From NCBI RefSeq assembly GCF_009834875.1, contig NZ_WVHT01000007.1:124001-188000 (forward strand): 64,000 nucleotides of DNA, in the 5' to 3' direction. This document shows, piece by piece, positions 22,000 to 51,167 of this stretch (position 1 is its first letter; each line of letters starts with the position of its first letter). The stretch is from Hufsiella arboris (GTDB lineage Bacteria; Bacteroidota; Bacteroidia; Sphingobacteriales; Sphingobacteriaceae). The notes beneath the pieces were generated by a model. The model ran no database searches and was not told the DNA's origin. It saw nothing but the letters and a program-made list of their open reading frames with translations. A program made the translations under genes and the position numbers.

Positions 22000-22302
22000 A
22001 GGAACAGGACTGGAGAACAGGGAGATGGGTTCTCAATGTTTCTTACGTACACGCAGATGTACTACAGCAGAAATTTCTTGCAGTGACGAAACTGAAGGTT
22101 TATAGTTGAACAGTCTGTCGTTCAATAAACCTGATGGCCGTGAAAAGCTTTTTGTTGAAATCGCCTTCGTGTTGGCATTTCCATTCATAAAAAGCTTGTA
22201 ACAAACAGCAGGGCCGTAGGGCCGATGAAATACTTGCGTTCGTTTTCAAAAAAAGAATATGAAAGATTTATGCTTTAATTATAAACCTTCTTCAGAGTAT
22301 AA
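22000..22302. other. Gene-free stretch after the SDR gene
   Basis: No supported gene, hairpin terminator or promoter was found here. It runs into the 21-bp repeat array. Confidence 0.6.
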
Positions 22303-29468: not shown

Positions 29469-30089
29469 TCAGACATACTCTTCTAAAACACCTTTGCCCT
29501 GTCTTAAAATTTCAAAATCTCCTGATGTGCAATCTACTACCGTTGACGGAATTGCATCGCCATAACCTCCATCGATGACAATGTCTACGAGATCCTCAAA
29601 CTTTTCGTGAATTAACTCGGGATCTGTTGAATACTCCATGATCTCGTCTTCATCATGGATAGAAGTTGTAATGATCGGGTTACCCAGCTCATGCACGATT
29701 TGCCTTGGAATATTGTTGTCCGGAATACGAATTCCGACCGTCTTTCTGTTGGAACTTAAAAGTTTGGGAACGTTATTATTTGCATTAAAAATAAAGGTGA
29801 ACGGGCCGGGAAGTGCTTTTTTCAATAAACGAAATTGTGTAGTATCCAATGGTTTTACATAATCCGAAATATGGCTTAGGTCGTAGCAGATGAACGAAAA
29901 ATTAGCTTTGTCAGGCTTGATGCCTCGAATTTTACAAATTTTTTCGATAGCTTTTTGATTAGTAATGTCACAGCCTAAACCGTAAATAGTGTCGGTTGGA
30001 TAAATTACTAAACCTCCTGACTTTAAGCAATCTACCACTTGTTGAATCGCTTTGGGGTTTGGGTTTTCCGGGTATATTTTTAGAAGCAT
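29469..30089 (-). CDS. Sua5/YciO/YrdC family threonylcarbamoyl-AMP synthase-like protein
   Basis: About 206 residues from ATG 30089 ([12 protein letters not shown]); a longer start at 30116 is possible. The YrdC domain fills the protein: [40 protein letters not shown] and VGIRIPDN. TsaC/Sua5 enzymes make threonylcarbamoyl-AMP for the t6A modification of ANN-decoding tRNAs. YciO-type members may act differently, and I cannot separate the two by eye. Confidence 0.88.
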
Positions 30090-30167
30090 ATCCTTATAAT
30101 CGTTCGAAGGTAACATTGTTTAAATAAAAAAAATATTTTAGTCTATAGGAATTATAGATTGATTGTA

Positions 30168-30175
30168 TATATTTG
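30168..30175 (+). promoter_or_regulatory. -7 promoter element for the SAM riboswitch transcript
   Basis: TATATTTG is an exact TAnnTTTG match, 20 nt upstream of the riboswitch P1 stem. This supports a transcript that starts at about 30180. No convincing -33 TTG is seen. Confidence 0.6.
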
Positions 30176-30195
30176 CATCATAGTTCTTTTAACTA

Positions 30196-30289
30196 CTTAT
30201 CCAGAAAGACGGAGGGAAAGGCCCGATGATGTCTTAGCAACCTGTACCGACAAGGTGCTAATTCCTGCCTGTTTACAGGCGCAGATAAG
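30196..30289 (+). ncRNA. SAM-I (S-box) riboswitch
   Basis: The core of the S-box aptamer is easily read: P1 strands CTTATC and GATAAG, GGAGGGAAAGGCCCGATGA, then AGCAACC, AAGGTGCTAATTCC and a P4 hairpin CCTGTTTACAGG. SAM-I aptamers switch expression off when S-adenosylmethionine is plentiful. They normally precede methionine or sulfur genes. Here the next gene on the strand is a tRNA-Cys 60 nt away, and no protein gene follows before a strong terminator. The 60-nt linker has a short hairpin AGATGA/TCATCT but no clear intrinsic terminator. Confidence 0.92.
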
Positions 30290-30349
30290 AAAACAGATGA
30301 CAGCAAATCATCTTGACAGGAAAATTCAGGATAAATTTTTAATTGACAA

Positions 30350-30420
30350 AGCCATGTGACCGAGTGGATAGGTTATGGTCTGCAAAACCTTTTACGGCAG
30401 TTCGAATCTGCCCATGGCAT
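30350..30420 (+). tRNA. tRNA-Cys (anticodon GCA)
   Basis: A 71-nt cloverleaf. The acceptor stem is GCCATG/CATGGC, the D-arm lies around GAGTGGATAGG, the anticodon loop is CTGCAAA (GCA), the T-arm is GGCAG/CTGCC with loop TTCGAAT, and U73 is typical of tRNA-Cys. Positions 1 and 72 are A and A, so the acceptor has six rather than seven pairs, and one anticodon-stem pair is T-T. CCA is not encoded. It lies downstream of a SAM-I riboswitch on the same strand. Confidence 0.85.
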
Positions 30421-30438
30421 CGAAAAAATATAAGGTTC

Positions 30439-30481
30439 AAATGCAGAAAGGCCATCTTAACAAGATGGCCTTTCTGCATTT
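30439..30481. terminator. Strong bidirectional terminator (tRNA-Cys / htpG)
   Basis: A perfect 20-bp stem closes on a 3-nt AAC loop; the left arm is AAATGCAGAAAGGCCATCTT. It ends the riboswitch/tRNA-Cys transcript and the convergent htpG transcript. Confidence 0.85.
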
Positions 30482-30491
30482 AATGTTGCTG

Positions 30492-32372
30492 TTAAATCAG
30501 TTCAACGCTTCTTTTTACAAACTCCGTCAAATCCGAACCTGTCAACAATCCCTGAGACAATAATGCCAGGTCAAAAGCCTGTTTAGCAAGCTTCTCTTTT
30601 TCCGAATCATCTGCTTTAGCAATGCGGCTAATCAGCGGGTGATTCCCGTTAACTGCTACTTTGTAATTTTCAGGTAATGACCCATAAAAGCTCATTCCTC
30701 CGCCCATTTGCGCCATGTCTTTCATGCGGCGCATAAATTCATCCTGGGTAATGCTTACCGGAAGTTCATCAGGATTCAAACTTTCGATTTCAACTTTATA
30801 ATTTGCCTTACTGATCGCCTTTTCAAAAGCAGACTTTACAGTGGTTGTTTCATCTTCCGTCAGAACATGAGCAGGGGCATCGTCCTTTTTAATCAACTTG
30901 TCAGCGACGTCTGAATCTACACGTTTCAGTTGTGTTTTTTCAAGTTTTTGCTCAAGCTGATTAATAAAGTGATTGTCGAGCGGCGAGCTCATATCTAACA
31001 CATCGTAATCCTTGCGGTTAGCAGATTGAATAAAGGAATCCTGCTTGCTGGCATCAACGGTGTACAGGTAAACAACGTTTCCATCTTTGTCTGTTTGTAC
31101 ATCTTTAACCTTTTCGCGGTATTCATCAAGTGTAAAGAATTCTTTCTTCGTATTTCCAAGAAGTGCAAAATCCTTCGCTTTGTCGTAAAATTTATCTTCA
31201 CTGATCATTCCGTATTTCACGAAAAGGCCGATGTCCTGCCACTTTTCTTCAAAGGCTTTTCTGTCTTTGTTAAACAGTTCAGATAATTTGTCAGCTACCT
31301 TTTTGGTAATGTAATTATTGATTTTTTTAACGTTGCTGTCGGCCTGTAAAAAGCTTCTCGACACGTTTAACGGAATATCCGGTGAATCAATCACGCCGTG
31401 TAAAAGCATTAAAAACTCCGGAACAATATCCTTTACTTCATCAGTAATGAAAACCTGGCGGGAAAACAGCTTTATTTTGTTGCGCTGAAATTCCATGTCG
31501 TTTTTCACTTTCGGGAAATACAGAACACCTGTCAGGTTAAACGGATAATCTACATTTAAATGAATCCAGAATAAAGGATCTTCCGAGAACGGGTAAAGCT
31601 CTTTGTAAAATGCGATATAATCCTCGTCTTTTAGCTCAGATGGTGACTTTGTCCAGATTGGGTTCGGATTGTTGATGATGTTGTCAACTTCAACCGACTT
31701 GTATTTTGGCTTGCCTTCTTCATCTTCACCATCTTCAACACTTTCGGTTTTGGTACCAAATTGAATTGGAACAGGTAGGAATTTGCAATACTTATCAAGA
31801 ATTTCCTGTAGCTTATGCTGATTTAAAAATTCTTCTGAGTCAGCGTTAACATGTAAGATGATTTCGGTACCGCGATCGCTGCGGTCGCTTTCTGTTATTT
31901 CGAATTCAGTACTTCCATCGCATATCCACCTGGCTGGCTCGGCGCCTTCCTGGTAAGATAAGGTGTTGATTTCTACCTTGTCGGCAACCATAAATGCCGA
32001 GTAAAAACCTAAGCCAAATTTTCCGATAAGTTCGTTAGCATCTTTAGCATCCTTGAATTTTTCTACGAATTCAGTCGCGCCGGAAAAAGCAATCTGGTTG
32101 ATGTATTTTTTTATCTCATCGGCGGTCATACCTAAACCGCGATCGGTGATGGTGATGGTTTTTGCCTTTTCATCAAAAGCAACCTGAACTTTTAAATCGC
32201 CTAGTTCACCCTGGAATTGTCCAAGCGAAGAAAGTCTCTTAATTTTTTGTGTCGCATCGACAGCGTTTGAAACAAGTTCCCTTAAAAATATCTCATGGTC
32301 CGAGTAAAGAAACTTTTTAATAATTGGGAAAATGTTCTCGGTGTGAATCGAAATCGTGCCTTTTTCCTGCAT
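30492..32372 (-). CDS. htpG: Molecular chaperone HtpG (Hsp90)
   Basis: 626 residues, full length. The N-terminal ATPase (GHKL) domain shows ELVSNAVDATQKIKRL, ITDRGLGMTADEIKKYI and GKFGLGFYSAFMVADKVE. The middle domain has LYFPK and NVSRSFLQ. The C-terminal dimerisation domain follows. A homodimeric ATP-dependent chaperone in the cytoplasm. Confidence 0.97.
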   Translation of the reverse strand: MQEKGTISIHTENIFPIIKKFLYSDHEIFLRELVSNAVDATQKIKRLSSLGQFQGELGDLKVQVAFDEKAKTITITDRGLGMTADEIKKYINQIAFSGATEFVEKFKDAKDANELIGKFGLGFYSAFMVADKVEINTLSYQEGAEPARWICDGSTEFEITESDRSDRGTEIILHVNADSEEFLNQHKLQEILDKYCKFLPVPIQFGTKTESVEDGEDEEGKPKYKSVEVDNIINNPNPIWTKSPSELKDEDYIAFYKELYPFSEDPLFWIHLNVDYPFNLTGVLYFPKVKNDMEFQRNKIKLFSRQVFITDEVKDIVPEFLMLLHGVIDSPDIPLNVSRSFLQADSNVKKINNYITKKVADKLSELFNKDRKAFEEKWQDIGLFVKYGMISEDKFYDKAKDFALLGNTKKEFFTLDEYREKVKDVQTDKDGNVVYLYTVDASKQDSFIQSANRKDYDVLDMSSPLDNHFINQLEQKLEKTQLKRVDSDVADKLIKKDDAPAHVLTEDETTTVKSAFEKAISKANYKVEIESLNPDELPVSITQDEFMRRMKDMAQMGGGMSFYGSLPENYKVAVNGNHPLISRIAKADDSEKEKLAKQAFDLALLSQGLLTGSDLTEFVKRSVELI

Positions 32373-50589: not shown

Positions 50590-51167
50590 CTCAATATCTG
50601 TGCGGGACAAAAGTAAAAAATAGATCGTTGATAGGCGGTATAAATAGTCAAATGGCAGAGAAGTTGTTTTAGGAATAGACGTCTGATTATGTGTAAATCC
50701 CACGCCGGTCGCTAAAGTCTTTTAGAAAAACAATACCTGCCTAATATTGGTCATTTCAGTCCCGCTCTTTATTTCAAGTTTTTTGTCAATGATTTTCTAA
50801 AGCCGAAGGTATTCTGCGCCAAAAAAGCTTTCCATGCTGATCGGGTTTAAAACAGTCGGGACATACTTTCATCGGAAGAAATGCGGCGCTATTGTTGCAC
50901 AAACATTCATCATAAACGCGATTGAAGCGGATACCGGCCAGGTGGTTAAGGCCTGTGAAGTATGAGCGTAAAGCGCGGCTGCTTACTGATATTTGTGCTA
51001 ACCGCTGGTTTTCAAGTCTAAAATCTAAAGAAATATTTTGTCAGCATTGCAGTTTCTTGATTATTACTTTGCAAGCAAACGTACAGCTACTTTACTTTAA
51101 TATTCCAGCGTTTGATTTGTTAAAATTGTCAGTCATCTTAAACTCGTTCCTTCTCCATAAACAAAAA
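50590..51167. other. Intergenic stretch between purM and glnN
   Basis: No supported gene, repeat or RNA. One plus-strand frame (50922-51212) has no family resemblance and runs through the glnN terminator. Confidence 0.6.

Follow-up and report, generated by a model that had tools for sequence, protein, structure and literature searches.

A SAM-I riboswitch aptamer leads into an auxiliary tRNA-Cys gene in Hufsiella arboris and in Mucilaginibacter

The window analysed here is a stretch of 64,000 nucleotides from Hufsiella arboris (Sphingobacteriaceae; contig NZ_WVHT01000007.1), in which a TsaC/Sua5-type L-threonylcarbamoyladenylate synthase gene (29469-30116; PF01300, TIGR00057) and the chaperone gene htpG (30492-32372; PF00183, NF003555), both on the minus strand, flank a set of plus-strand RNA elements to which neither of them belongs. 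The first of these is a SAM-I (S-box) riboswitch aptamer at 30194-30291, which matches the full Rfam model RF00162 (positions 1-108) with 77.5 bits where the gathering score is 44.4 (E 1.7e-16, Infernal), and whose core sequence and structure satisfy the family model over its full length. It is followed by a linker of 58 nt (30292-30349), the presumed expression platform, and by a tRNA-Cys gene with a GCA anticodon, called by ARAGORN at 30350-30421 and matched by RF00005 at 30350-30420 (plus strand) with 47.2 bits (Infernal). An initial annotation of this DNA had recognized both RNAs, which our searches bear out, and a linker between them, for which it gave 60 nt. According to ARAGORN and RF00005 the tRNA has the anticodon, U73 and the cloverleaf, and its acceptor stem falls short of seven pairs because A1 faces A72. 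An exact TAnnTTTG box (TATATTTG, 30168-30175, plus strand), read from the sequence and already pointed out in the annotation, lies 5' of the aptamer; we take it to be a promoter of the Bacteroidota type, and boxes of this length are frequent by chance and constitute little proof on their own. TTTG boxes also occur just 5' of most of the Mucilaginibacter direct units that were printed, direct units being those in which the tRNA-Cys follows the aptamer with no gene between them, and the 5' leader ahead of the window aptamer contains GTTCTTT (30183-30189), identified by eye, which is common to the Mucilaginibacter units.

SAM-I riboswitches normally control methionine and sulfur genes. At this locus the usual context of a sulfur or methionine protein gene is absent: we found no plausible CDS downstream of the aptamer on the plus strand, and the only two plus-strand ORFs of at least 60 codons that overlap 30168-30481, of 66 and 62 codons, lie over the RNAs themselves, so that the unit consists, as had been annotated, of a riboswitch followed by an RNA gene without a CDS. 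The 20-bp stem previously proposed as its terminator exists, at 30437-30483 between the tRNA-Cys and htpG, but it qualifies as a terminator for the minus strand alone, on the htpG side; on the plus strand it lacks the U-run required by the terminator scan, which called no intrinsic terminator on that strand between 29800 and 30900. Elsewhere in the window there are two matches to the Flavo-1 RNA (RF01705), at 22123-22219 (plus strand) and 50754-50852 (minus strand), with 44.9 and 44.3 bits for a gathering score of 42.

A scan of 84,980 species with a pattern joining the 3' part of the aptamer to a following tRNA-Cys, which may leave out records very near the window's genome, retrieved the same order in 37 contigs, 33 of them titled Mucilaginibacter and four Bacteroidetes MAGs. 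The order singled out for comparison in the annotation is thus found in relatives, and ARAGORN placed a tRNA-Cys(GCA) at the expected position in all 37 contigs as well as in the window. Among 395 genomes sampled across the phylum, a search pattern for a SAM-I element with any tRNA close behind it hit one, the window's own; the few genomes of Mucilaginibacter (genus g14) in this sample carry other forms. Together, the 37 further contigs and the single case in the phylum sample indicate that the arrangement is more than chance. The window's genome belongs to the same family as Mucilaginibacter and to a different genus (g1), and we did not detect the window's unit in any close relative: the sole genome of the same genus that we found contains two SAM-I elements, neither of them near a tRNA called by ARAGORN. 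Likewise, the orthologous Sua5 loci of six relatives show neither a tRNA nor htpG within about 1.5 kb, and hence hold no counterpart of the window arrangement. In 20 of the 23 direct units examined the next ORF lies on the opposite strand, which leaves the tRNA as the only evident product. In five direct units of Mucilaginibacter (L067, L068, L097, L107 and L112) long insertions enlarge the P3 region. In three other Mucilaginibacter loci (L084, L184 and L237) an auxiliary tRNA-Cys without SAM-I lies beside a transglutaminase-like gene, a neighbour that many direct units have too; compared with the direct units, these are cases of riboswitch gain or loss at one place.

The tRNA-Cys of the window is one of four in its genome, whose 43 tRNA matches were all inspected, with ARAGORN or by eye. 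The ordinary copy (G000:C34:300784; 61.7 bits) has no riboswitch nearby, whereas the other three score 47.2 bits (the window), 43.4 bits (C1:439073, with a bulged acceptor stem) and 30.9 bits (C45:117484, degenerate), the last two not being called by ARAGORN. Since a separate ordinary gene exists, the window copy is a second, non-standard one and not the main supply of the cell. This qualifies the proposal of the initial annotation that the level of SAM may set the supply of tRNA-Cys: as control of this particular gene the idea draws good comparative support from the 37 further contigs and from SAM-I-led units that include a tRNA-Cys, and would concern an auxiliary copy only.

With a pattern for this auxiliary type we obtained 133 matches in 119 of 399 genomes of the family, representing 8 of 25 genera, although the pattern also takes bulged and some normal-acceptor copies, at least one of them standard-looking (in G008). 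Bases 1 and 72 of 89 distinct tRNA-Cys sequences were A.G in 55, A.A in 12, G-C in 14 and A-T in 3, the remainder being G.A (2, misregistered), T-G, C.A and T.T (one each), while the nine standard tRNA-Cys variants are all G-C. Position 1:72 is unpaired in 71 of the 89; two of these (L176 and L194), bulged and in the wrong register, were left out, and the resulting set of 69 is therefore unpaired at 1:72 throughout by selection.

One could suppose that these tRNAs are pseudogenes hitch-hiking in sulfur units. The unpaired 1:72 or bulged acceptor agrees with decay, as do mismatches in the anticodon stem of 40 of the 69, which are compatible with a loosened constraint, the score of just 30.9 bits of one copy in the window's genome, and the presence of C33 in some Mucilaginibacter sequences. 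The rest of the molecule speaks otherwise. Compensatory changes preserve acceptor pairs 2-71 to 7-66 and the T-stem, which shows no unpaired cell among the 69, and U73 and GCA are invariant, the anticodon and T-arm being partly fixed by the search pattern. In total, 104 cells, over 12 pairs, carry changes in both partners of a cloverleaf pair, whereas shuffles gave 28.9 ± 4.8 and slid sequences no more than 27, a contrast that is not a probability because the shuffles ignore relatedness; further pair types in the same set showed no excess (25 versus 24.8 in shuffles). Moreover, the direct units have no other evident product than this tRNA, and we consider decay decidedly improbable. Six of the Mucilaginibacter genes (L102, L103, L120, L126, L128 and L131) have C33 in the anticodon loop in place of the usual U33, accompanied by T38 and, in a single gene, by T37 as well. 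A search for a second CysRS found none above the cut-off, with one PF01406 match in each of 12 genomes.

We applied a SAM-I covariance model to all 133 auxiliary-type matches; 19 SAM-I sequences from the same genomes served to build it, and these match it by construction. A SAM-I lies upstream on the same strand in 56 of the 133, all of them in Mucilaginibacter except that of the window. These comprise 25 direct units, counting G100 and G115 by their Rfam matches since the covariance model cut their long P3, and 18 units in which the tRNA lies past a 1-Cys peroxiredoxin gene, 12 past a cysteine desulfurase gene and one past another gene. The genes were named from Pfam and NCBIfam searches with one representative each and from similarity for the others, and the NCBIfam scores of the desulfurase fall below the equivalog cut-offs. 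A gene between aptamer and tRNA, which the initial annotation had considered, does therefore occur in relatives, but it is a peroxiredoxin or desulfurase gene rather than a met gene, and the tRNA remains part of the unit, with 6-36 nt between it and the stop codon (138 nt in the case of the second copy of a tandem). From their order on one strand, the SAM-I, the gene and the tRNA are probably co-transcribed. Tandem pairs of tRNA-Cys occur at L081:2521-2713, behind a SAM-I and peroxiredoxin unit, and at L077:2630-2865.

These gene-containing units bear on another reading, in which the SAM-I once ran a sulfur gene together with a tRNA-Cys and the gene was then lost, leaving the tRNA merely downstream. 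Gene loss, also put forward in the annotation, may well be how the minimal unit arose, as the peroxiredoxin and desulfurase units of the relatives make plausible, and only one genome is known to have the unit of the window, as might be the case for a relic. The linker of the window, however, contains no gene remnant in its 58 nt, and a relic should decay, whereas 37 contigs have retained the direct form, and their linkers end alike: in most Mucilaginibacter sequences the linker finishes in AAGTGATT before a U-run, and most direct forms have AAGTGATT..ATAGTTTT. That the present unit is only such a remainder appears improbable to us.

For the other 77 auxiliary-type genes, including all 40 of genus g13, no SAM-I was found in the upstream stretch searched, which varies in length and is shorter than 1,400 nt in three of them. 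A longer view, of about 10 kb upstream, was obtained for 36 of these loci and for the C1 copy of the window's genome (n=37). Six of the 37 have a SAM-I on the same strand, 2.5-6 kb upstream, and 15 have upstream on the same strand a short ORF that ends in at least three cysteines, five of them with a SAM-I too; in three the cysteine-run ORF is on the other strand, one of these being the leader of another auxiliary tRNA. These short ORFs are, as judged from their sequence, candidate cysteine attenuators in Bacteroidota. Examples 5' of an auxiliary tRNA-Cys and on the same strand are found in L253, L255, L266, L279, L280, L282, L285, L286, L288 and L291, one of which extends a residue or two beyond the run. 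In two further g13 loci (L069:2733-2918 and L070:3110-3296) the order is reversed, with the tRNA-Cys just 5' of a SAM-I that is followed by a DUF4833 gene, and with a second SAM-I close by on the other strand.

Control searches gave no such association. Across the family, 24 standard tRNA-Cys loci, covered to about 1.5 kb on each side (one shorter), yielded no SAM-I, and neither did 30 tRNA loci of the window's genome, in a search that did detect the window's locus; similarly, about 8 kb at each of two standard tRNA-Cys genes contained neither a SAM-I nor a cysteine-run ORF. It is thus very improbable that riboswitch and tRNA are neighbours by chance, with the tRNA transcribed from its own promoter and the riboswitch having no effect on it, given that the order recurs in 37 contigs and in several gene orders and is missing from the control sets. 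A weak sigma-70-like match (9 of 12) does overlap the linker, at 30297-30325, but the region contains three such sites against 3.0 in shuffles, that is, no excess.

The window's genome contains three other SAM-I elements, all ahead of protein genes that were named by eye from their translations. One of them (C23) precedes metH; another (C53) is followed by a 37-codon ORF ending in CACCCC and then by MetY (L088:2990-4630); and the third (C45) leads, in this order, into a thioredoxin gene, an ORF ending in six cysteines, SusC, SusD and the degenerate tRNA-Cys. The C45 order (L085:2765-8555) recurs in five Mucilaginibacter loci, L274-L278. The bulged tRNA-Cys of C1 lies past a cysteine-run ORF, SusC, SusD and a large ORF (by eye), and in this genome every non-standard tRNA-Cys gene, three in all, is consequently downstream, on the same strand, of a SAM-I, of a cysteine-run ORF or of both. 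The two SAM-I elements of the same-genus genome precede metH in one case and MetY, together with a cysteine-run ORF, in the other, while its auxiliary tRNA-Cys starts 29 nt after a cysteine-run ORF, indicating that the sensor placed ahead of the auxiliary tRNA-Cys differs within the genus. The succession of SAM-I, cysteine-run ORF and MetY is present in both genomes of the genus (C53; L299), and it is possible that these MetY units have two sulfur sensors in series.

Two competing partners can be drawn in the window for the 5' strand of P1 (CTTATCC, 30196-30202): the P1 3' strand GATAAG at 30284-30289, as in the cmscan alignment, with a duplex of -5.8 kcal/mol, or the sequence GGATAA at 30329-30334 in the linker, with -6.9 kcal/mol. 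In the unconstrained minimum-energy fold the P1 5' strand takes GGATAA and the tRNA acceptor stem is kept. When P1 is forced, a weak hairpin (ATCTTGA..TCAGGAT, 30310-30332, -4.0 kcal/mol) is predicted, followed by AAATTTTT, and its 3' arm overlaps the GGATAA partner; from these models the hairpin may take part in the switch, with no terminator called there. The predicted folds fit a unit that is on at low SAM and off at high SAM. Even so, 11% of shuffled window linkers do as well in the alternative pairing of P1, a shorter P1 segment pairs with -2.1 kcal/mol, for which 90% of the shuffles are as good, and the linker alone folds no better than its shuffles (z -0.59).

Folding in Mucilaginibacter allows for a more elaborate device, in which, with P1 formed, the C-rich linker would pair with the D or anticodon arm and spoil the cloverleaf, whereas without SAM the P1 strand would pair with GATAAGTG and free the tRNA. 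Linker-arm duplexes of -7.5 to -17.4 kcal/mol can indeed be drawn, with matching changes that are most convincing in the GGTTAAGGTC arm class, and for 23 of 38 linkers the pairing with the P1 strand surpasses that of 95% of shuffles. Pairing with the tRNA arm, however, exceeds 95% of shuffles in only 10 of the 38, and in three of six Mucilaginibacter arm classes a foreign arm beats the own arm. Furthermore, linker and tRNA pair in 37 of 39 folds with P1 forced but also in 32 of 39 without, so the folds do not show a switch. The mismatches in the anticodon stem were rejected as a sign of linker pairing because they are as common in other auxiliary tRNAs (28/46) as in direct ones (12/23). In the window itself the linker shows no signal with its own tRNA arm (z -0.1). 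We regard this device as rather unlikely, although it deserves mention for Mucilaginibacter.

The reading that we consider probable, from the elements themselves, their recurrence, their gene contexts and the kept fold of the auxiliary class, is a minimal unit led by a SAM-I riboswitch, which yields nothing but an auxiliary tRNA-Cys and does so at low SAM, as part of a response to sulfur starvation. With plentiful SAM, the P1 helix would be held together and the tRNA would be either not made or not matured; with little SAM, the P1 5' strand would pair with the downstream GGATAA and the tRNA would be transcribed through and processed. We infer in this that the aptamer binds SAM, that control has this direction and works by this step, that aptamer and tRNA share a transcript and that the tRNA is active. 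As the auxiliary class is placed behind SAM-I elements and cysteine-run ORFs, in Mucilaginibacter and in the window's genome, its units would be expected to respond to sulfur starvation.

Extra tRNA copies with a separate job have a precedent in the staphylococci, which have additional, structurally altered copies of tRNA-Gly that do not take part in protein synthesis. The auxiliary tRNA-Cys resembles them in being an extra copy of the same specificity with an altered structure; unlike in that case, a separate job is here only a candidate. A more far-reaching version of our reading, which we put forward tentatively and hold to be possible but doubtful, is that this is a distinct class of tRNA-Cys made only during shortage of sulfur amino acids, under SAM-I riboswitches and cysteine-run attenuators, whose acceptor stem has been purposely modified (by an unpaired 1:72 or by a bulged A) for a job other than ordinary decoding. 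If so, donation of cysteine outside the ribosome, altered decoding of Cys codons or a report on cysteine charging would be candidate jobs.

Several known systems share parts of this arrangement. In Clostridium acetobutylicum, according to the available part of the report, the ubiG operon for conversion of methionine to cysteine involves S-box-dependent antisense RNAs (PMC2940859), which likewise combine an S-box with a non-coding RNA in sulfur metabolism; that RNA is antisense to an operon, whereas the one proposed here to be under S-box control is a cloverleaf tRNA. Rli55 and AspocR of Listeria are non-coding RNAs under B12 riboswitches, and there, as far as the accessible text of the source goes, the riboswitch decides whether a full-length non-coding RNA is made, as we propose for the tRNA, but the ligand is B12 and the RNA either sequesters a protein or is antisense (PMC8079631). 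The same partial source describes SreA of Listeria as acting in trans, and by analogy the aptamer transcript of the window might itself be a trans-acting small RNA, but we find this extremely improbable, the tRNA being the partner common to the direct units. As for the gene-containing units, the 1-Cys peroxiredoxin LsfA of Pseudomonas is described, in the available portion of the article, as induced under sulfur starvation (PMC12581299), which by analogy fits the presence of a 1-Cys peroxiredoxin gene in SAM-I-led units with a tRNA-Cys, although that portion mentions no tRNA. Finally, polycysteine short ORFs of mycobacteria are reported to be cysteine-responsive attenuators (Canestrari et al. 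2020, as cited in the accessible part of PMC13236596). Our cysteine-run ORFs similarly precede sulfur units, and here also auxiliary tRNA-Cys units, but they belong to a different phylum and are candidates recognized from sequence, set against what the citing text reports for mycobacteria.

We found no description of a riboswitch-controlled tRNA gene in the open-access literature, among the matches listed. The aptamer is of a known kind: it matches the full SAM-I model (RF00162), and models give its P1 strand two candidate partners. The downstream product, a tRNA instead of a methionine or sulfur protein gene, is unlike the usual SAM-I and new to the literature searched. The known targets of riboswitches are protein genes and a small number of regulatory RNAs; with a tRNA as target, the sensing of SAM would be linked directly to the translation apparatus, and the two sulfur amino acids would be tied together. 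The direct units, made up of aptamer and tRNA alone, are small enough for tests in culturable Mucilaginibacter. In all, the locus is a real and recurrent SAM-I-led tRNA-Cys unit, which is best read as one member of a regulon for sulfur starvation to which an auxiliary tRNA-Cys class belongs; a second tRNA-Cys linked to starvation, with a consistently altered acceptor stem, raises the question of what purpose a special cysteine tRNA may serve in these bacteria.
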